From Chryseobacterium sp. JV274 (GTDB lineage Bacteria > Bacteroidota > Bacteroidia > Flavobacteriales > Weeksellaceae), in the NCBI RefSeq assembly GCF_903969135.1, contig NZ_LR824569.1, positions 4,299,001 through 4,363,000 of the forward strand: a stretch of DNA of 64,000 bases. The letters run 5' to 3'. Of this stretch, positions 10,952-19,786 are shown piece by piece; position 1 is the first letter of the stretch; each line of letters starts with the position of its first letter. The notes under the pieces are model-generated. The model had not been told where the DNA came from. It worked only from the letters and a program-made list of their open reading frames with translations, and did not search any database. The position numbers and the translations under genes are program-made.

Positions 10952-12121
10952 CTACAAACTATACCCGTTCTTTTTTGCCAGTTCAACAATAGAACTCTCA
11001 ATTGCTTTTCCCAGGTCATCAGAATCATCAGTGCCTCGTTTTTTCATTTCTCCGTCAATAAAGGTCTGGCGCTTTTTGGAAAGCTCTTCAATTTCTTTCT
11101 GAATTTTATCACGAGCGGCAGACTTTGCCGTGATCGTTTTTTGAATTTCTTCCTTGCTTTTTCCTTTCAGCTCGGCAGGAAGTTCACTTTCTTTTACATT
11201 GGCAATAAATCCGGCATCCTTTTCGGCCTTATCCACCAAATCCCAGTGATCATTTTTGTAAGCATTCTTTTTAGATTTGGCAACGGCCCTTTCCACTAAG
11301 TTGGATGCTGACTGTGATTCAGCGTTTTTATCCTGCGTGATCTGCTTTAGTCTGTATTCCGAACCGTGGTTTCCATAATAGATGTAAGTATCGTTCAGCT
11401 TTGCATTGCATTCGGAAATTTTGATATCGTAAGGCGTTTCAATATAGATTACTTTTCTGTCACTGTCGATATTGAAATATTTTCCACCTCCCAAAGACGC
11501 GCCGTTTTGCCAGAATGTCTGGATTCCTTCTTCCCGGCTTCCGCAGAAAATAGTGTTGGTGTAAATGTTTTTATCCTTTGCTTTTGAAACAACATCCTTA
11601 TAATTTATTTTTCCCTGATTGAATGCTTCATTCCCTGCAATATAAATCAGTTTCATACTTTTATCATTGCTGTCCCAGTTCAGGTTGGCAGAAGCATCAC
11701 GGATAACAGCACCGCAATATTCACTGCCGCCATTGGTTTTTAAGGCAAATAGTTTTTCGGAAATAAGATCAAGATCCTGAGTAAGAGGAGCAATCTGGCG
11801 GATATAATTTTCATCGCGGATTCCGTCGTTGCCATATTCATACAGGGCAATTTCAATCTGGGGCGCTTTTCCGTTGTACTTTAAAGTGGTCAAAGTATTC
11901 ACAATATTCCACAGTCTGGATTTTGCCTGATCAATCAATCCGTCCATACTATTGGAAGTGTCCAGTAAAAGAGCGACCTGAATTTTATTGTCCTTTACAA
12001 TTGAGCTGGACGGAATCAATGTTACTGGTACATTACTTTGTATAGAGCGGTTCTCCGGAATATTGCCAGAGCTTAAAAAAGCTGTACCCGCTGCAAGTGC
12101 TAAGATTTTTAAAGTTGTCAT
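10952..12121 (-). CDS. Secreted von Willebrand factor A domain protein
   Basis: A 389-aa protein with an N-terminal signal sequence (MTTLKILALAAGTAFLSSG). The VWA domain covers about residues 45-240 and carries an intact MIDAS motif DTSNSMDG (DxSxS), followed by a conserved Thr-containing loop and a strand with LIYIAGNEAF. The C-terminal third is Lys/Glu-rich and helical (residues 270-380). VWA domains bind metal and partner proteins; no enzymatic domain is seen. It starts 18 bp after the MuiA-like gene on the same strand, so the two are one operon driven from the promoter with direct repeats at 13768-13832. Probably periplasmic, with a role in the envelope module described for this block. 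Confidence 0.88.
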   Translation of the reverse strand: MTTLKILALAAGTAFLSSGNIPENRSIQSNVPVTLIPSSSIVKDNKIQVALLLDTSNSMDGLIDQAKSRLWNIVNTLTTLKYNGKAPQIEIALYEYGNDGIRDENYIRQIAPLTQDLDLISEKLFALKTNGGSEYCGAVIRDASANLNWDSNDKSMKLIYIAGNEAFNQGKINYKDVVSKAKDKNIYTNTIFCGSREEGIQTFWQNGASLGGGKYFNIDSDRKVIYIETPYDIKISECNAKLNDTYIYYGNHGSEYRLKQITQDKNAESQSASNLVERAVAKSKKNAYKNDHWDLVDKAEKDAGFIANVKESELPAELKGKSKEEIQKTITAKSAARDKIQKEIEELSKKRQTFIDGEMKKRGTDDSDDLGKAIESSIVELAKKNGYSL

Positions 12122-12139
12122 ATTATTATTTATTATTGG

Positions 12140-13741
12140 TTATCTGCTGTAATATTGGATCTGCATCTCTTTAGGATATTTTACTTCATAAGAGAATGTA
12201 ATCTTCTCAGAATTGCCTGAACCTATGTTTTTGTTCCACAGGATACTTCCCGTTTTATCATCAAGGTTTCCTCCACCCAAATCCAATGTTTTGACCAGAA
12301 TCTTAGAATTTTCACTGATTGGGAGCTGGTCAAGAACTTCCAGTTCAATATTTTCTTTCGTATTATTTCTGATACTTATCTGGTAAGACTCTGTTTCCCA
12401 TTTGTTAGAATTCATTGCCTTTTGAGAAGTTTTATCTTCAAGCTTAATTCTTTTTACTGTAATTCTTTCATCTGTTCCCAGAGAAATCGGGAATTCGTCT
12501 TTCACATAATTGCTGGTAATATTGGTTTTCCCGATATAATTATCATCAAAGTAAATATTGGCTTCTCCATTGATGAGGTTAAGATTCTGCCAGTTCTTTA
12601 TAAAAGCCATCAGGAATACCTGATTATTAAGTTTAGGAACGGTGTGGTATTTATAAGTGGCATCAATTTGTTTTTTATCCAGAATGACATACTGTTCTTT
12701 TTCCTGGCTTACTATGGTCTGATTGTAATTAAGCTCATAGATCACATTCATCTGGCTGTCAGAAACTGAAGCTACAGGAATCTGACTTGGCTTTGCAGCA
12801 ATATCTTCTCTCATTTGATAGACATTAGCTGCTGAAGTTTCCTTTTTAGATTTATAAGCTGCCACTTCCATCTGAGAATTGTATGGTGTATATTCAGCTA
12901 CGTACAGCGGAGATAAAATAGGTCTGTCCTGGTTGTATGAAGGTCTGTAAGTAGAGACAAACAACTTTACATTTTTCCAGTCCTGTCCGGTCTTCTGATA
13001 AATTTTACCTTTATAAACCATTTCAAGAGGTTTCTTGACAGACTCAGCACGCAAATCATAAGAAGGAATCCATCCGGCATCAGAAACAATATAGCTTATC
13101 CCAAGATTCAGATTGGTTTCGTTATCTGCAAGAATTTCAAGCAATAGCTCTCTGCGGTTGGTATTTTTATGCGTTTGCTCCTCGGCAGACTGCTTGTTGA
13201 GTTTTGCGATACTTTCATCCAGAACCGTTTTCTGTTCGTCCAGAAGAAATACCTGGCTATCGATTTCCAGCATTCGTTTTCTATAAAATTCCGTAAGCTT
13301 AATAAGCTGTTCCTGCGGAGTAGATTTATCATTGGTGGAGACTTTTAAATTGTCATTAATGATCCGTTGCTCTCCCATCAGGTTTTTGATTTGAATATTC
13401 AGCAGGCTCACCTGTCTTTGAAGCTTTTTTGTCTCTGTTTCAAGTTTCTTTTCATTGTCTGATAATTCATCATTCTTCAAAAAATTATTTTGAGGCGTTA
13501 TGGAAAGGAGTGTAGTATTTTTTTCAAGATTGATTTTATACGTATTTTCATCCAGATTATTGGGAAGATTGACAATTCTTATGGTATTTCTACCTTTCTG
13601 AAGACTCACATTGGTACTTCCGAAAACTTTTGCTCCCTGAAGAAATACAGTGGCCTGCTTTACTTCAATTTCTTTTTTTATTTCCTGTGCTTTACTAAAG
13701 GCAGCCAAAAATATGATTAATAGTAAAAAATAGCGTTTCAT
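12140..13741 (-). CDS. MuiA-like protein (DUF4140/DUF4139)
   Basis: A 533-aa secreted protein with signal peptide MKRYFLLLIIFLAAFSKAQ. The N-terminal DUF4140-like domain (about residues 22-120: EVKQATVFLQGAKVFGSTNVSL, NTIRIVNLP) is followed by a coiled coil (95-180) and the DUF4139 domain (about 200-533: LGISYIVSDAGWIPSYDLRA, GQDWKNVKLFVSTYRP, ending in ITFSYEVKYPKEMQI). This is the usual layout of the mucoidy-inhibitor A family, whose biochemical role is unknown. First gene of an operon with the VWA protein. Its upstream region has a weak -7 box and a pair of 9-bp repeats at 21-bp spacing, pointing to control by a LytTR-type regulator. Confidence 0.9.
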   Translation of the reverse strand: MKRYFLLLIIFLAAFSKAQEIKKEIEVKQATVFLQGAKVFGSTNVSLQKGRNTIRIVNLPNNLDENTYKINLEKNTTLLSITPQNNFLKNDELSDNEKKLETETKKLQRQVSLLNIQIKNLMGEQRIINDNLKVSTNDKSTPQEQLIKLTEFYRKRMLEIDSQVFLLDEQKTVLDESIAKLNKQSAEEQTHKNTNRRELLLEILADNETNLNLGISYIVSDAGWIPSYDLRAESVKKPLEMVYKGKIYQKTGQDWKNVKLFVSTYRPSYNQDRPILSPLYVAEYTPYNSQMEVAAYKSKKETSAANVYQMREDIAAKPSQIPVASVSDSQMNVIYELNYNQTIVSQEKEQYVILDKKQIDATYKYHTVPKLNNQVFLMAFIKNWQNLNLINGEANIYFDDNYIGKTNITSNYVKDEFPISLGTDERITVKRIKLEDKTSQKAMNSNKWETESYQISIRNNTKENIELEVLDQLPISENSKILVKTLDLGGGNLDDKTGSILWNKNIGSGNSEKITFSYEVKYPKEMQIQYYSR

Positions 13742-13767
13742 CGTTTATTATTTTGAATTTCTAGAAG

Positions 13768-13832
13768 TAAAATTATCTCTATTTAAGGCTGAAAATTGGG
13801 AAACTTGGTGAAGGGGTAATTTGACTTGGTGA
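13768..13832 (-). promoter_or_regulatory. LytTR-type direct-repeat operator and weak promoter, copy A (MuiA-VWA operon)
   Basis: On the plus strand ACTTGGTGA occurs at 13803-13811 and 13824-13832, start-to-start distance 21 bp (12-bp spacer). Read on the minus strand, the proximal repeat is followed after 27 bp by TAATTTTA (13775-13768), one base off TAnnTTTG, while the -33 position has TTT instead of TTG. A poor core promoter behind a repeat pair is what an activator-dependent promoter looks like. Confidence 0.75.
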
Positions 13833-13938
13833 GTATGCCATAGAGAAAAAAGAGGTTGTTTCAAAATTGTCATTCTGACGAAGGAAGAATCTCTTTTACA
13901 ATAAATTCGATTCCGTTCGAAACGACAGAAAACAAAAA

Positions 13939-13960
13939 AAGCTACCCTTTGGGGCAGCCT
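13939..13960 (-). terminator. Terminator of the first SIMPL gene
   Basis: On the minus strand a 9-bp stem with two G-U pairs (13960-13952 with 13947-13939) is followed by a run of T. Confidence 0.65.
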
Positions 13961-13976
13961 TATTTAATTTATTATT

Positions 13977-14657
13977 TTAAAGAATCTCGTATCTTGTCTT
14001 GATACTGTATTTCAGCTTGATGTTTTCAATATTATCAAAAGAATAGTCTACCGGAGCATCAGACATTTCCATCTGTACACTGTTTACTCTGCCTTTATAA
14101 GCTGCCGGCATGATCATATCGCTGGTATAGTCTTCTATTTCTACGATTTCAAGAGCATTTCCGGTTTTTTTGCCCATACTTTCCAGTAAATAATCTGCTT
14201 TTTCTTTAGCGGCTTTCAAAGCATTGATCTTTACTGCTTTTCTGAAATCTGCAATTTTAGTACTCTTTACCTCTGCGATGTTCAGGCTGCTTACCCATTT
14301 TTGATTCAGGTCTTCAAAAATTTTATTCAGACTTGATTTTGTGCCGGCTTTAAACTGATAACTTTTAGTAAACTTGGCTGTTTTAGAATAAATATTCTGG
14401 TACATTGATTTGAACTTGATGTCCTCGTTCTTTACTCCTGCATTTTTTAAAGTTTCAAATAACTTCTTCTCATTATCTGCCAGATCATTTTTGTTATCTG
14501 CTTTTATTCCGATGCTGAAGATGATTTCATCCGGTTCTACTTCCATTTCGGCAACACCTGTAACTTCAATTGCGTTTTTCTTTACTTCTTGTGTCTGAGC
14601 GTTTACAAAGCTTCCAAGAGTTAAAATTCCGATTAATAAAAAATGTTTCAATTTCAT
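13977..14657 (-). CDS. SIMPL-domain periplasmic protein
   Basis: A 226-aa protein with signal peptide MKLKHFLLIGILTLGSFVNAQ and one SIMPL (DUF541) domain over residues 28-225. The typical opening IEVTGVAEMEVEPDEIIFSIGI and later ALKAAKEKADYLLESMGKKTG and YSIKTRYEI are visible. The family includes the E. coli oxidative-stress protein YggE and the mammalian SIMPL protein; biochemical activity is unclear. It has its own promoter with the shared repeat pair (14691-14755) and its own terminator, so it is a separate unit of the same putative regulon as its neighbours. A second, more divergent SIMPL-like protein lies just upstream at 14771. Confidence 0.9.
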   Translation of the reverse strand: MKLKHFLLIGILTLGSFVNAQTQEVKKNAIEVTGVAEMEVEPDEIIFSIGIKADNKNDLADNEKKLFETLKNAGVKNEDIKFKSMYQNIYSKTAKFTKSYQFKAGTKSSLNKIFEDLNQKWVSSLNIAEVKSTKIADFRKAVKINALKAAKEKADYLLESMGKKTGNALEIVEIEDYTSDMIMPAAYKGRVNSVQMEMSDAPVDYSFDNIENIKLKYSIKTRYEIL

Positions 14658-14690
14658 AATTTCCTGTTTTTAAATTTTTAATTACTGATG

Positions 14691-14755
14691 TAAAATTACG
14701 CCGATCAGAAACCGGAATTCGGGAGACTTGGTGAAATGGAGCTTTCACTTGGTGA
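14691..14755 (-). promoter_or_regulatory. LytTR-type direct-repeat operator and weak promoter, copy B (SIMPL gene)
   Basis: ACTTGGTGA lies at 14726-14734 and 14747-14755, again 21 bp apart. On the minus strand TAATTTTA (14698-14691) follows the proximal repeat by exactly 27 bp, as in copy A. The spacers differ in sequence between copies, so the repeats and the -7 box are what is conserved. Confidence 0.78.
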
Positions 14756-14770
14756 GACTTCAGAAATGAA

Positions 14771-15688
14771 TTACTTCTCTTTATTTTTCTTCAGATCATA
14801 TTTTACGTTGAGGTTCATAATATACTGTATACCCACTTCAGGATCAGAGTTGTTAATAACCTTATCAAAGCCGGTATAATCTGTTCCGTCATAGTAAAAG
14901 GTCTTTGATTTCCTTTCTTCTTTTTTTACATATCTGCTGTCATATCCATAGGTGACGCTGGCGCTTTCAAGAGCGGTATAATTTTGATATTGATTTTTGG
15001 GAAAAATATAAGTAAAACCTGAACTGGCTGTAGGTTTGCCGATAATTTCCTTTTTAAATAAACTAAAGTAGTTTTCCTTCTTTTTATCGAAAACAGCATA
15101 TGCTTCTTTGAGAAGATTTTCCTGGATTTTATCAATATCATTGTTGATGTAATCCACTTTAATAATATCATAGATCTGAAAATCCGAAGCTTCAGAGATC
15201 AGTTTTTCAATCATTGAATGTTTGTTTACCGTAATAATGATATTTTTCTTGGTTTCGAACCCATCCATTTTCTGAATGGTTACCTGAGTGTCTTTATTAA
15301 TGTCATAATCATAGATTTTTGTCTGCGAGATAAAATCCACAAAAATATCATCGTTTTTGATGCCCATTGATGATATCCTTTTTATAAAACCATTGATTCT
15401 CCTGTTGATATTTTCGATGGCAATTTTAGGTGTGGCAGCTTCTTCATTCAAACCCAGAGTAAGTTTATATTGGTCTGCAGTCTTATTCATCAATACTTTT
15501 ACACTAACAACCAAGGTGGAATCATTGGCGAAATAACTATTAGTATTGTTGAAGTCAGGGAGGTTTTTTAGGGCGGAATAATCGTTGTTATTTTTGTCTC
15601 TGTAAATTTGGTTTCCTCCCACCTGCGCTTTTGAAAAGCTTAAAAAAGAAGTCATGATGAGAAAAAATGCTACTGTTTGTTTTTTCAT
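14771..15688 (-). CDS. Second, SIMPL-like secreted protein
   Basis: Started at the ATG at 15686-15688, the product is 305 aa with a clear signal peptide (MKKQTVAFFLIMTSFLSFSKAQ). A start 16 codons earlier is possible in frame but would lie upstream of the promoter found at 15716-15744. The body has a SIMPL-like pattern (VSVKVLMNKTADQYKLTLGLNEEAATPKIAIENI, later an IKNDDIFVDFISQTKIYDY segment and a long charged C-terminus), more divergent than the neighbour at 13977. It is longer than typical family members. Own promoter with repeat pair C, divergent from the sensor kinase at 15823. Probably periplasmic; function unknown. Confidence 0.82.
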   Translation of the reverse strand: MKKQTVAFFLIMTSFLSFSKAQVGGNQIYRDKNNNDYSALKNLPDFNNTNSYFANDSTLVVSVKVLMNKTADQYKLTLGLNEEAATPKIAIENINRRINGFIKRISSMGIKNDDIFVDFISQTKIYDYDINKDTQVTIQKMDGFETKKNIIITVNKHSMIEKLISEASDFQIYDIIKVDYINNDIDKIQENLLKEAYAVFDKKKENYFSLFKKEIIGKPTASSGFTYIFPKNQYQNYTALESASVTYGYDSRYVKKEERKSKTFYYDGTDYTGFDKVINNSDPEVGIQYIMNLNVKYDLKKNKEK

Positions 15689-15715
15689 GATTTTTAAATT
15701 TGAATTATTTTGCCC

Positions 15716-15781
15716 CAAACTTAGTCTTACGGTCACGGTGTCAATGACTAAACTTGGTGAAAGGGTATTTTCGCTTGGTGA
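15716..15781 (-). promoter_or_regulatory. LytTR-type direct-repeat operator and promoter, copy C (second SIMPL gene, next to the kinase promoter)
   Basis: ACTTGGTGA at 15752-15760 and GCTTGGTGA at 15773-15781 are 21 bp apart. On the minus strand they are followed by TTG (15744-15742) and TAAGTTTG (15723-15716) with an 18-bp spacer; repeat-to-TA distance is 28 bp against 27 in copies A and B. The distal repeat ends 7 bp before the -33 box of the divergent kinase promoter, so the same site could serve both. Confidence 0.8.
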
Positions 15782-15788
15782 ATAGTTT

Positions 15789-15818
15789 TTGAGTACACTA
15801 TATATATGTATATCTTTG
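15789..15818 (+). promoter_or_regulatory. Promoter of the sensor kinase gene
   Basis: TTG 15789-15791 and TATCTTTG 15811-15818, spacer 19 bp. The ATG at 15823 lies only 4 nt past the -7 box, so the transcript is predicted to be leaderless or to start translation at the next ATG (15829). Confidence 0.7.
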
Positions 15819-15822
15819 TTTT

Positions 15823-17616
15823 ATGAAAATGTTTACACTTCTTACAATCTTTTTACTGATGCTTTGGGGAAATACTATGTCTTCCCAGAACACTAATAAT
15901 AGCAGTGCTGCTGTGGAAGAAGTGCAGGTAGAGACGAAGAAGCTGAAAAAAGCAATGGATACTAAAAATGAACCTGCCCAGGCAGATTCATATTATAATA
16001 TTGGCGAAACATTTTTTAATAGTGGAAATTTTCCGAAAAGTGAAGAGTATTACACCAAAGCGAAAAATCTGTATGAAAAACTCAATGACAAGCCAAATAT
16101 TGAAAAAGCAACCCGCAGATTGGCCCAGTCACAGGAAAAACAGAATAAAATAACGCCTGCTATCAGTAACTATGGCAGAGCGGCACAAATGAATTATAGT
16201 GAAAAAAGTAAGGCCGTCAATTCTAATGACGTTACAAGACTTTCTTCTCCTACGCCGGAGCTTAGGGCAGAAGCTATTCAGAATAATATCAACCTGAGTA
16301 AAAAAGAAAACGAACAGGGTGATCTTGCGGAAAGCTACAGTCAGTTAGCTGATGTCAATCTTAAACAGAAAGATGTTTCCAGTGCGGAAGAAAATCTTAA
16401 TACAGCGTATAAAATCTCTAAAAAAGAAGCTCCGCAGCAAGCATTGGCCATCAATCAGAAACTTGCAGATCTTTATGTTGAAAACAAGAACTTTGAAAAA
16501 GCTATTGAAGCCAAAAAGAAGGTGTTGAAAGAAGATTTTGTAAAAGAAAACTCGCAGGAAAAAGTCAATCAGATTCAGGAACTTGCGGATATTTATATTA
16601 AGAAAAATGATCCTAAAGAAGCGGTAGATCTTTTGAAAAATGCCTATGGAATTGCTTTGGATAAAGGCCATACATTAGAAGCGCAGAAGAGCGTAAAAAA
16701 GCTGGACAGTCTGTACGCTATTTCAGGAAATATTGATGCCTCCGTTCAATTGTACAGAGACTTTTTAGGAAAACTTCCAAACCTGGTTTCCAAGGACAGA
16801 AGCCTGGTAGACAATAAAATTCTGGAAGATACCGAGCAGCGGATTTCTCAGCTGGAAAAAGAAAGAGAATTGAAAGATGAGCTTATCCGCAAGAAAAATG
16901 TATTCAATTATAGTCTGATCGGAGCTTTAATTCTGTTGACGGGATTGATTATTTTTATTTTCAGAACACTGAAAAAAGTTCAGACAAAAAATAAAAAGAT
17001 TGCTCTTCAGTCGTTGCGCAGAGAGATGAACCCGCATTTTATCTTTAACAGTTTGAATAGTGTTAACCACTTTATTGCAACCAATAATGAACTGGAAGCC
17101 AACCAGTATCTGACAAAATTCTCCAAGCTGATGCGTGGCGTGATGGAAAATTCTACCGAAGATTTTATTCCTTTCCAACAGGAGCTTGACCTTCTCCAGA
17201 ATTATCTTGCTTTAGAAAAAACACGTTTTGCAGATAAGTTTGATTATGAAATTGAAGTAGATGAAAGTTTGAATATGCAAAACCTCCAGATTCCGGGAAT
17301 GCTGATACAGCCGTTTCTGGAAAATGCAATATGGCACGGACTCCGTTACAGAACAGAAAAAGGATTTTTAAAATTAAACTTTGAAAAGAGTGAATCGCAT
17401 CTGAAGATTCTTATCGAAGACAACGGAATAGGCATTGAAGAAAGCAAAAAGCAGAAAACCCAGCATCAAAAAACAAGAGAGGGCAGAGGAATGAAAAATA
17501 CACTGGAAAGAATTCAGCTTCTGAATGATTTGTACAAAAAAGATATTACCTGCTCTGTAAAGGACAAGGAAAATGATACCGGAGTTTTAGTCACTATAAA
17601 AATTAATATGCACTAA
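15823..17616 (+). CDS. TPR sensor kinase of the LytS/His_kinase family
   Basis: A 597-aa membrane kinase. It has a signal peptide (residues 1-21), a periplasmic region with several tetratricopeptide-like repeats (about 45-310; e.g. ADSYYNIGETFFNSGNFPKSEEYY), a coiled coil (330-358), one membrane segment (361-381), and then a His_kinase domain with MNPHFIFNSLNS (phospho-acceptor His405) and an HATPase domain with PFLENAIWHG (497-506) and DNGIGI (533-538). This class pairs with LytTR response regulators. One such regulator is encoded at 19052, after two small membrane protein genes on the same strand. It is divergent from the second SIMPL gene and lies beside operator C. Confidence 0.93.
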   Translation: MKMFTLLTIFLLMLWGNTMSSQNTNNSSAAVEEVQVETKKLKKAMDTKNEPAQADSYYNIGETFFNSGNFPKSEEYYTKAKNLYEKLNDKPNIEKATRRLAQSQEKQNKITPAISNYGRAAQMNYSEKSKAVNSNDVTRLSSPTPELRAEAIQNNINLSKKENEQGDLAESYSQLADVNLKQKDVSSAEENLNTAYKISKKEAPQQALAINQKLADLYVENKNFEKAIEAKKKVLKEDFVKENSQEKVNQIQELADIYIKKNDPKEAVDLLKNAYGIALDKGHTLEAQKSVKKLDSLYAISGNIDASVQLYRDFLGKLPNLVSKDRSLVDNKILEDTEQRISQLEKERELKDELIRKKNVFNYSLIGALILLTGLIIFIFRTLKKVQTKNKKIALQSLRREMNPHFIFNSLNSVNHFIATNNELEANQYLTKFSKLMRGVMENSTEDFIPFQQELDLLQNYLALEKTRFADKFDYEIEVDESLNMQNLQIPGMLIQPFLENAIWHGLRYRTEKGFLKLNFEKSESHLKILIEDNGIGIEESKKQKTQHQKTREGRGMKNTLERIQLLNDLYKKDITCSVKDKENDTGVLVTIKINMH

Positions 17617-17832: not shown

Positions 17833-18525
17833 ATGGAAACTAACCGTCAAACAGCCAGACTCGCAGGATTTTTTTATCTTATTGTTATCGTAACCGGACT
17901 TTTCAGCCTAATGTACGTTCCGTCTAAGCTGATCGTCTGGGAGAATCCTGCATTGACTTTTCAAAATATTTCTTCTTCAGCACAGTTATTCAGATTAAGT
18001 ATAGCAAGCAGCATTACCTGTTATATCGCTTTTACTTTACTTCCTTTGGTCTTGTATAAACTATTGAAAGCTGTAGATGATCGTTATGCAAAACTGATGG
18101 TTATTCTTGCTCTTATCAGTATTCCTATTTCCTTTATCAATCTCCAAAGCAAATTTTCTGTTCTTACTATTATTGAAGGCGCTGACTATCTGAAAATATT
18201 TGATCTACAGCAGCTGCAGGCCCAGATGATGCTCTTGCTGAGCAGTTATAACAAGGGACTTTTAATTGCGCAGATCTTTTGGGGATTGTGGCTTTTTCCT
18301 TTTGGATATTTGGTATATAAGTCCGGTTTTTTACCAAAAGTTTTAGGAATCTTCTTAATGTTGGGCTGCTTTGGATATGTGATCAACGTTTTTGGAAGAA
18401 CTGCAATTCCTCATTTTTCAGACAATTCAATATCTGGTTATGTCACATTACCGGCAACAGTAGGAGAGATAGGAATCTGTCTGTGGTTGCTGTTGGTTGG
18501 GATACGAAATAAAAAAATAGATTAA
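17833..18525 (+). CDS. DUF4386 family membrane protein
   Basis: A 230-aa polytopic membrane protein with about six hydrophobic segments. The opening NRQTARLAGFFYLIVIVTGLFSLMYVPSKL and the later LIAQIFWGLWLFPFGYLVYKSGFLPKVLGIFLMLGCFGY are the hallmark sequences of DUF4386. The function of the family is unknown. It ends 12 bp before the next membrane protein gene, so the two are cotranscribed. Both lie between the LytS-type kinase and its likely LytTR partner, which suggests, but does not prove, a part in signal perception or output of that system. Confidence 0.9.
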   Translation: METNRQTARLAGFFYLIVIVTGLFSLMYVPSKLIVWENPALTFQNISSSAQLFRLSIASSITCYIAFTLLPLVLYKLLKAVDDRYAKLMVILALISIPISFINLQSKFSVLTIIEGADYLKIFDLQQLQAQMMLLLSSYNKGLLIAQIFWGLWLFPFGYLVYKSGFLPKVLGIFLMLGCFGYVINVFGRTAIPHFSDNSISGYVTLPATVGEIGICLWLLLVGIRNKKID

Positions 18526-18537
18526 AAAATCATAACC

Positions 18538-18954
18538 ATGAACAATTCTACAAAATTTGAAGATGTGCAGATCAATGTGAAAATCATATTGGCCGGTCTT
18601 TGGACTTCGGTTACTCTGTGCTATCTGTACGGTGATTATTTCGAGCTTTATACTCCGGGGAAAACCCGTGGTCTGGTGGAGGGAACCAATTTATTAGATT
18701 CCCCATCTAAATTACTTCTTGCTTCAGTCATTTTGGCTATTCCCGCGGTAATGGTGTTTCTTTCTCTGATATTAAAACCGGTAGTGAACAGAATGCTCAA
18801 CATCATCTTTGGTACATTTTTTACTTTGGTAATGCTGTTTATTGGTATTATTTCTTTCTCGGATTGGTATTTGTTTTATGTTTTTCTTGCCATGGTAGAA
18901 TGCATTATTACGATATTGATCGTAAAGCACGCATGGTGCTGGAAGAAAGTATAA
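18538..18954 (+). CDS. DUF6326-like small membrane protein
   Basis: A 138-aa protein with four membrane segments (about residues 15-33, 57-79, 88-108 and 112-131). The sequence KIILAGLWTSVTLCYLYGDYFELYTPG near the start matches what I recall of DUF6326. Function unknown. It begins 12 bp after the DUF4386 gene and ends about 100 bp before the LytTR regulator, so it belongs to the same gene group. Confidence 0.82.
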   Translation: MNNSTKFEDVQINVKIILAGLWTSVTLCYLYGDYFELYTPGKTRGLVEGTNLLDSPSKLLLASVILAIPAVMVFLSLILKPVVNRMLNIIFGTFFTLVMLFIGIISFSDWYLFYVFLAMVECIITILIVKHAWCWKKV

Positions 18955-19051: not shown

Positions 19052-19786
19052 ATGAAAATAAAAGCCGTAATTGTAGACGATGAACTTATAGCAAGAGAAG
19101 TTTTACGAAGTTATCTTACCAAATACTGTCCGCAGGTGGAAATTCTTGGTGAAGCTGAAAATATTAAAGAAGCCGTGCCATTGATTGCTGAAAAGCAGCC
19201 TCAGTTGGTATTTCTGGATGTAGAAATGCCTTTCGGAAATGCCTTTGATGTATTGGAAGCTACCAAGGAATTTTCCTATGAAACCATTTTCATTACTGCA
19301 TTTTCACAATATTCATTACAGGCTTTAAACAAATCAGCAAGTTATTATATTTTAAAACCTATTGATATTCAGGAGCTGATTCTTGCGGTGAATAAAGTAG
19401 TAGAAAGCCTTGAGAAAAAAGAAGAGCTCAACCGTAATAAGATTCTGCTTGAAAACCTGAAATTAAAACCTGAAAAACAGCAGTTAATTCTTCCAACCCT
19501 GCAAGGATTCGATGTTGTAAAGACTGAAGATATTATGAGACTTCAGGCTGATGGAAACTTTACGCAGGTCTATCTCACTGACGGCTCCAAAAAAATGGTG
19601 TGTCGCTTTTTAAAACATTTCGATGACTTGCTGGAAAGCCCGTTTGTGAGAGTTCATCGTTCCCATATTATCAATACAGGGTTTGTGAAATCCTACCATA
19701 AAAGCGGAACCGTAATGCTGTCTGATGATACTGAAATTGAGGTTTCAGGAAGCTTTAAAGATAATTTTCTGAAAGTATTTTCATAG
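19052..19786 (+). CDS. LytTR-family response regulator
   Basis: From the ATG at 19052 the product is 244 aa; an earlier TTG at 19010 adds 14 residues without family similarity and is unlikely. The receiver domain (residues 1-120) has Asp9/Asp10 in VIVDDE, the phospho-acceptor Asp56 in LVFLDVEMP, Thr in FITAFS and Lys in YYILKPID. The LytTR DNA-binding domain (about 145-244) has EDIMRLQADGNFTQVYLTDG and FVRVHRSHIINTGFVKSYHKSG. LytTR proteins bind pairs of about 9-bp direct repeats two helical turns apart, and such pairs are found at 13803-13832, 14726-14755 and 15752-15781. It is the likely partner of the kinase at 15823. Confidence 0.95.
   Translation: MKIKAVIVDDELIAREVLRSYLTKYCPQVEILGEAENIKEAVPLIAEKQPQLVFLDVEMPFGNAFDVLEATKEFSYETIFITAFSQYSLQALNKSASYYILKPIDIQELILAVNKVVESLEKKEELNRNKILLENLKLKPEKQQLILPTLQGFDVVKTEDIMRLQADGNFTQVYLTDGSKKMVCRFLKHFDDLLESPFVRVHRSHIINTGFVKSYHKSGTVMLSDDTEIEVSGSFKDNFLKVFS

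Follow-up and report, generated by a model that had tools for sequence, protein, structure and literature searches.

The three paired direct repeats found in Chryseobacterium sp. JV274 are most probably the binding sites of the LytTR regulator encoded at 19052-19786 of the window, i.e. the 64,000-nucleotide stretch of DNA that was analysed. Through these sites the regulator would control genes for MuiA, VWA and SIMPL proteins as well as the gene of its histidine kinase. Our estimate covers binding and control, and the sign of control is weighed separately. What connects the sites with the LytTR gene at 19052 is co-occurrence, gene neighbourhood and the known geometry of LytTR sites. The analysis yields a 32-bp operator together with a likely regulator and likely targets in two families, and it ties MuiA, SIMPL and VWA proteins into one predicted regulated module. 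The repeats recur before matching envelope-protein genes or the sensor-kinase gene in more than 100 related genomes, and they would constitute a small switch for envelope proteins whose signal and function are open to reporter study. Two-component systems of the LytTR type are already known and the locus adds a further example. Our searches of open-licence papers turned up no operator that had been mapped for a LytTR regulator of either Chryseobacterium or Flavobacterium.

Repeat pairs, promoters and genes of the locus

The repeats stand at 13803/13824, 14726/14747 and 15752/15773, in one orientation and with a start-to-start distance of 21 bp in all three pairs, precisely as a sequence-only reading of the window had claimed. 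The pattern is ACTTGGTGA-N12-ACTTGGTGA, and the second copy of the third pair reads GCTTGGTGA (one mismatch). Operator 1 (13803..13832, plus strand), which carries the conserved logo, lies 5' of the minus-strand MuiA-VWA genes, operator 2 (14726..14755, plus strand) 5' of the minus-strand SIMPL gene 1, and operator 3 (15752..15781, plus strand) between SIMPL gene 2 on the minus strand and the histidine kinase gene on the plus strand. When up to three mismatches were allowed, the window gave three pattern matches, whereas 100 shuffles averaged 0.06 and always stayed below three. The whole-genome scan that the reading had proposed returned three matches at up to two mismatches in 5.2 Mb, all of them at this locus. 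One additional match at exactly three mismatches is taken as noise since the reversed control pattern gives seven at three or fewer. A search of 13000-16500 against Rfam at E 0.1 returned no match, and an RNA element was therefore dropped as a candidate. The spacers do differ in sequence, as had been stated, yet they are not simply different: in all three pairs the first base is A and the last bases are TTT followed by G or C, and these bases are shared across the genus.

Each repeat pair is followed by a predicted promoter. On the minus strand, the -7 box TAATTTTA of the MuiA promoter (13768..13775) lies 27 bp from operator 1 and the same box of the SIMPL1 promoter (14691..14698) 27 bp from operator 2, both at conserved distances, and the -7 box TAAGTTTG of the SIMPL2 promoter (15716..15723) lies 28 bp from operator 3. 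Re-measurement thus reproduced the gaps of 27, 27 and 28 bp between proximal repeat and -7 box. Two of the core promoters, those with TAATTTTA boxes, are indeed poor: the stretch from operator to box contains no TTG. The sequence-only reading named a minus-strand gene behind each pair but overlooked a fourth promoter, that of the kinase gene at 15823. This predicted promoter, TTTG-N19-TATCTTTG (15788..15818, plus strand), begins 6 bp past operator 3 and leads into the kinase gene; from the third site to TATCTTTG the distance is 29 bp, and 19 bp separate TTTG from TATCTTTG. In Flavobacterium psychrophilum a TAnnTTTG box at -12 to -5 has been described in the accessible part of PMC9723704, and if that scale is applied here, the operator covers roughly -40 to -69. 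Only 4 bp separate the kinase start codon from its -7 box (window 15811-15825), an arrangement shared by many relatives. Of the 68 kinase loci examined, 53 have TAnnTTTG with an ATG or GTG 3-5 bp behind it; the histidine kinase message is therefore predicted to be leaderless. At operators away from the kinase gene, a conserved TAATTTTAC that is close to, and not identical with, TAnnTTTG occupies the -7 position.

The putative targets are all encoded on the minus strand. They comprise a MuiA-family protein (DUF4139/DUF4140; 12140..13741; TIGR02231 above cut-off, PF13598), a VWA-domain protein (second gene after MuiA; 10952..12121; Pfam PF00092) and the SIMPL-domain (DUF541) proteins 1 (13977..14657) and 2 (14771..15688), both matching PF04402. 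MuiA and SIMPL1 have a signal-peptide-like N terminus by eye, and for SIMPL2 the ATG that gives a signal-peptide-like N terminus was likewise picked by eye as the start. The histidine kinase (15823..17616, plus strand) consists of TPR repeats and a His_kinase domain (PF06580) that scores 77.4 bits against a cut-off of 25.2, as is characteristic of LytS-type kinases; a simple scan detected one hydrophobic segment above 1.6, near residues 359-386.

The candidate operator binder (19052..19786, plus strand) is a response regulator with a receiver domain (PF00072, 60 bits, cut-off 30.2) and a LytTR domain (PF04397, 44.2 bits, cut-off 22.6). Its residues 198-204, FVRVHRS, correspond to the LytTR motif FhRhHRS, and R200, V201, H202, R203 as well as D56 are invariant in 34 aligned regulator sequences that are 76-100% identical and were chosen from 120 listed plus the query. 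Since a sequence search of solved structures matched chiefly receiver domains, a fold search was run with a structure model of the regulator (mean pLDDT 78, pTM 0.59). Full-length ComE came first by E-value with a TM of 0.39, and comparison with the LytTR-DNA complex of AgrA (4xqj) gave a TM of 0.83 on the target and an rmsd of 1.7 over 97 columns. The genome encodes 21 LytTR genes. In a local check of 19 of the 20 other LytTR loci, phase 21 had 5 pairs and every other phase between 12 and 33 had 0-4, and a clear 21-bp motif did not emerge; a general rule of a local 21-bp repeat beside the LytTR genes of this genome is therefore not claimed. Between kinase and regulator lie a DUF4386 and a DUF6326 gene (window 17833-18954); many of the 80 loci described below lack these two genes or have others in their place.

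Form and placement of the operator in related loci

We compared 80 named loci, many of which belong to genomes that are also counted in the genus set of the following section. At up to two mismatches they contain 210 pairs with a 12-bp spacer, all in the same direction relative to the regulator gene. An 11-bp spacer was found in three pairs and spacers of 10, 13 or 14 bp in none. The logo of 153 non-redundant sites reads A(A/G)ACTTGGTGAA-N7-TTT(C/G)ACTTGGTGAA, with A at +9 in 95% of sites, T at +17 to +19 in 95-99% and C or G at +20, so the spacer is not free sequence. In gene direction the 32-bp operator reads TTCACCAAGT(G/C)AAA.

An operator is present within 260 bp 5' of nearly all SIMPL1 (76/77), MuiA (37/39) and SIMPL2 genes (22/24) of these loci. 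For VWA genes the count is 17 of 64; among the 47 without a near operator, 41 stand behind another same-strand gene and six do not.

The kinase gene is preceded by an operator as well. With ATG starts alone, an operator lies within 260 bp 5' of 68 of the 80 kinase genes. The other 12 genes were called too short; in the four of them that were read, an in-frame GTG occurs some 57 bp beyond an operator. We took the kinase start to be whichever in-frame ATG or GTG comes first behind the operator, by which the order of the two is given by construction while the clustering of distances is not: the operator lies 39-58 bp from the start in 76 of 80 loci, with 49 loci at 41-42 bp and 22 at 57 bp, and the remaining four have it at 11-15 bp. 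Fourteen of the 80 loci have one more operator in the interval from the nearest leftward gene to the kinase operator; six have no leftward ORF of at least 80 aa that starts within 300 bp of the kinase operator. The kinase operator is also kept in genome G053, where no divergent gene remains; in G150 there was none before the kinase gene at up to three mismatches. We infer from these arrangements that the kinase gene is under self-control. As the operator faces the kinase gene in the opposite sense to its orientation towards the target genes, this feedback may be of either sign.

Co-occurrence of operator and regulator within the genus

The genus set comprised 148 genomes, in which the pattern was sought at up to two mismatches and the regulator at E 1e-70. 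The pattern occurs in 140 and the regulator in 138 genomes, one of the latter partial. All 138 regulator-positive genomes have the pattern and eight of the ten regulator-negative ones do not (Fisher p 1e-11, with relatedness ignored). In the two genomes with the pattern and no regulator found, either a contig ends inside the kinase gene (G056) or the assembly is 73% complete (G123). At least two matches are present in 135 of the 140 pattern-positive genomes; the remaining five have one match each, near the regulator. The reversed control pattern matches 31 of the 148 genomes, mostly once, and a lone match with two mismatches accordingly proves little. These genomes are related and the counts are not counts of independent gains or losses.

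SIMPL1 was found in none of the eight genomes that lack both regulator and pattern, and MuiA gave either no match or one of 29-31% identity only, which indicates that the whole locus was lost. Such co-loss weakens the argument from the genus, and because regulator and SIMPL1 disappear together, their co-occurrence with the pattern cannot name the binder. Genomes in which the targets are separated from the kinase are more informative. SIMPL1-VWA and an operator lie 209 kb from the kinase operator in G053, VWA-SIMPL1-SIMPL2 and two operators 2.0 Mb from it in G142 (contig coordinates), and MuiA-VWA and an operator 18.6 kb from it in G079; in G150, MuiA and its operator are on a different contig from the regulator. 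For the proposed link, these separated loci and the second family described below are stronger evidence than co-occurrence within the genus.

Occurrence beyond the genus

Within the same family but outside the genus, the regulator was found in five of 128 genomes. The pattern at up to two mismatches matched 28 of these genomes and the reversed control nine. Four of the 28 matches resemble the extended consensus by eye, and all four genomes have the regulator. The fifth regulator-positive genome, G224, has a diverged pair, AATGGGTAA twice at the 21-bp phase, between its VWA and kinase genes.

The second family was represented by 299 genomes of one genus that appears to be Flavobacterium-like, and the pattern used there was designed on loci from that same genus. 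The regulator was found in 61, the pattern in 69 and the reversed control in four of the 299 genomes. Regulator and pattern occur together in 60, the regulator alone in one and the pattern alone in nine. The sole regulator genome without the pattern, G599, has a diverged 21-bp pair. Among 31 fetched loci, all score 20-23 of 24, whereas the highest score in 20 single-base shuffles of 9 kb was 17. In 20 of these loci the VWA start has an operator at a distance of 61-75 bp; in 22 an operator overlaps the called kinase start or is no more than 125 bp away from it. Each of the 31 shows one or both of these placements. For the sequence-only reading, absence of the repeats from relatives that have the LytTR gene would have broken the link; this did not happen, as 138/138 genomes of the genus and 31/31 loci of the second family carry the operator. 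In two genomes of two further families, whose regulators are 47-49% identical, operator scores of 23 and 20 were obtained.

Four of the nine pattern-only genomes (G552, G667, G787 and G810) were inspected, the set of pattern-only genomes outside that inspection being G584, G655, G675, G686 and G774. In three of the four the site is inside an ORF. G552 has an intergenic operator that scores 23 of 24 (L228:6001-6031) and no regulator ortholog at E 1e-80, and the 12 kb fetched from it contain no kinase or regulator match. The operator of G552 precedes genes of three exported-looking proteins.

Comparison with known LytTR systems

Two 9-bp direct repeats with a 12-bp spacer lie 5' of the predicted promoters, as in known LytTR sites, and judged from this layout the putative site would work like a LytTR activator site. 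The LytTR domain of AgrA contains the FhRhHRS motif, and a dimer binds two direct repeats just 5' of promoters, according to the portion of PMC4227749 that is accessible. Our system resembles AgrA of Staphylococcus aureus and its P2/P3 sites in the LytTR fold (4xqj), in this motif and in the paired direct repeats just upstream of promoters, which are known here from sequence alone. Unlike in the AgrA system, the kinase carries TPR repeats together with a single hydrophobic segment, and the half-site differs. AgrB was not among the 10 ORFs given to Pfam.

A likeness in the arrangement of the sites is also seen with the LRS HdrRM and BrsRM of Streptococcus mutans, for which the accessible text of PMC6193735 describes 9-bp direct repeats with a mostly 12-bp spacer, 4-11 bp upstream of -35, and regulators that control their own operon. 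Repeat length, spacer, promoter-proximal place and the predicted feedback on the own system are shared. However, LRS use a membrane inhibitor instead of a kinase (PMC6193735), whereas a histidine kinase is present here and many loci lack the intervening DUF4386 and DUF6326 genes. The half-sites differ too. Those of the LRS in Streptococcus mutans read e.g. ACCACTTAT, with ACCACTTAC given for other streptococci (PMC6193735), in contrast to the ACCAAGTGA-like half-sites here, and ACCAAGTGA shares only part of the LRS consensus. In gene direction (TTCACCAAGT), the repeats thus resemble the LytTR half-sites quoted from that source only in part. The sequence-only reading of a LytTR regulon is in our view supported, but it left unstated the kinase operator, the conserved spacer bases and this only partial likeness.

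The combination of a LytS-type kinase with a LytTR regulator is also known from BtsS/BtsR and YpdA/YpdB of E. coli, whose targets are transport proteins according to the accessible text of PMC5552118. BtsR is the best NCBIfam match of our regulator and remains below the cut-off (102 vs 246 bits). Unlike BtsS, a 7-transmembrane receptor by the title of PMC10653868, the kinase is not a multi-pass membrane sensor and has TPR repeats and one internal hydrophobic segment. In Flavobacterium johnsoniae, five lines that had coevolved with an antibiotic producer each had a mutation in one or the other gene of the LytTR/kinase pair FJOH_RS09515/FJOH_RS09520, as reported in the part of PMC10197871 that is accessible. 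That pair may or may not correspond to ours, and our argument makes no use of it. The TPR part of our kinase matches the FimS model of Porphyromonas gingivalis weakly, and with 24.8 bits, far below the cut-off of 600, the kinase is not FimS. The partner of FimS in Porphyromonas gingivalis is a LuxR-type regulator.

Proposed mechanism and alternatives

In the best reading of these data, a TPR-type histidine kinase and a LytTR regulator would control themselves and a private envelope regulon of VWA, MuiA and SIMPL proteins. The TPR part of the kinase, predicted to lie outside the inner membrane, may sense an envelope condition, and phosphate would pass to Asp56 of the regulator. A regulator dimer would bind both half-sites on one helix face just upstream of the -33 region and would recruit RNA polymerase to promoters with poor core elements. 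Activation by the regulator is predicted for the promoters of MuiA-VWA, SIMPL1 and SIMPL2; the regulator may also control the partner kinase gene at 15823, which would close a feedback loop. The system might even be an ancient envelope-sensing circuit of the Flavobacteriales, in which one operator, its sequence kept down to 47% regulator identity, fires the VWA, MuiA and SIMPL genes as well as the leaderless kinase gene in both directions and stays private despite a 2-Mb move of targets; we hold this wider reading tentatively, a little short of evenly balanced.

A different transcription factor, encoded elsewhere, might bind the repeats and control the regulon together with the kinase and regulator genes. 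Such a factor would produce an identical co-occurrence in the genus, given the joint loss of regulator and SIMPL1, and a helix-turn-helix dimer could read the second half-site, which is near a dyad (TTCAC-TTG-GTGAA) and has the C at +20 that belongs to this dyad in 66% of the 153 non-redundant sites. We nevertheless consider it distinctly improbable: among the annotated ORFs of the layouts examined, the LytTR gene is the only regulator that recurs next to operators in the two families alike, 229 of the 238 second-family genomes without the regulator lack the pattern, and 9-bp repeats with a 12-bp spacer just 5' of -35 are the LytTR geometry that the accessible text of PMC6193735 describes. That the repeats reflect chance or a dispersed repeat element has a negligible probability. 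The genome is AT-rich and yields scattered matches at two and three mismatches, for the reversed control too, but at up to two mismatches this is the sole locus of the genome, its phase is fixed and its distances nearly so, the sites are conserved across families, and the Rfam search was negative for 13000-16500 at E 0.1. Both readings were rejected on the shuffles, the genome scan, the phase and the conservation across families.

Repression of the targets or of the kinase gene by the bound regulator is compatible with the binding reading and concerns the sign of control only. It would suit the kinase promoter, which has good -33 and -7 elements (TTTG-N19-TATCTTTG), and the uniform direction of all 210 sites, which gives the operator the opposite orientation with respect to the kinase gene. 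We regard it as rather unlikely, since the sites lie upstream of the -33 region instead of covering it, both promoters with a TAATTTTA box have no TTG between operator and box, as for activated promoters, and repeats placed in this way serve activation in Streptococcus mutans according to the accessible part of PMC6193735. Binding by the LytTR regulator, with activation of the envelope-protein genes, is the reading that we prefer.

Further operator-preceded genes

In relatives, operators also precede genes of an amidohydrolase with a SnoaL domain, of a 461-aa VWA protein and of proteins without a Pfam match. In several species, a pair of genes encoding proteins of 191 aa and 377-383 aa stands behind an operator (L132:3695-5434, L109:5727-7463), and the pair in L132 has no Pfam match. 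This gene pair is likely a further member of the regulon.
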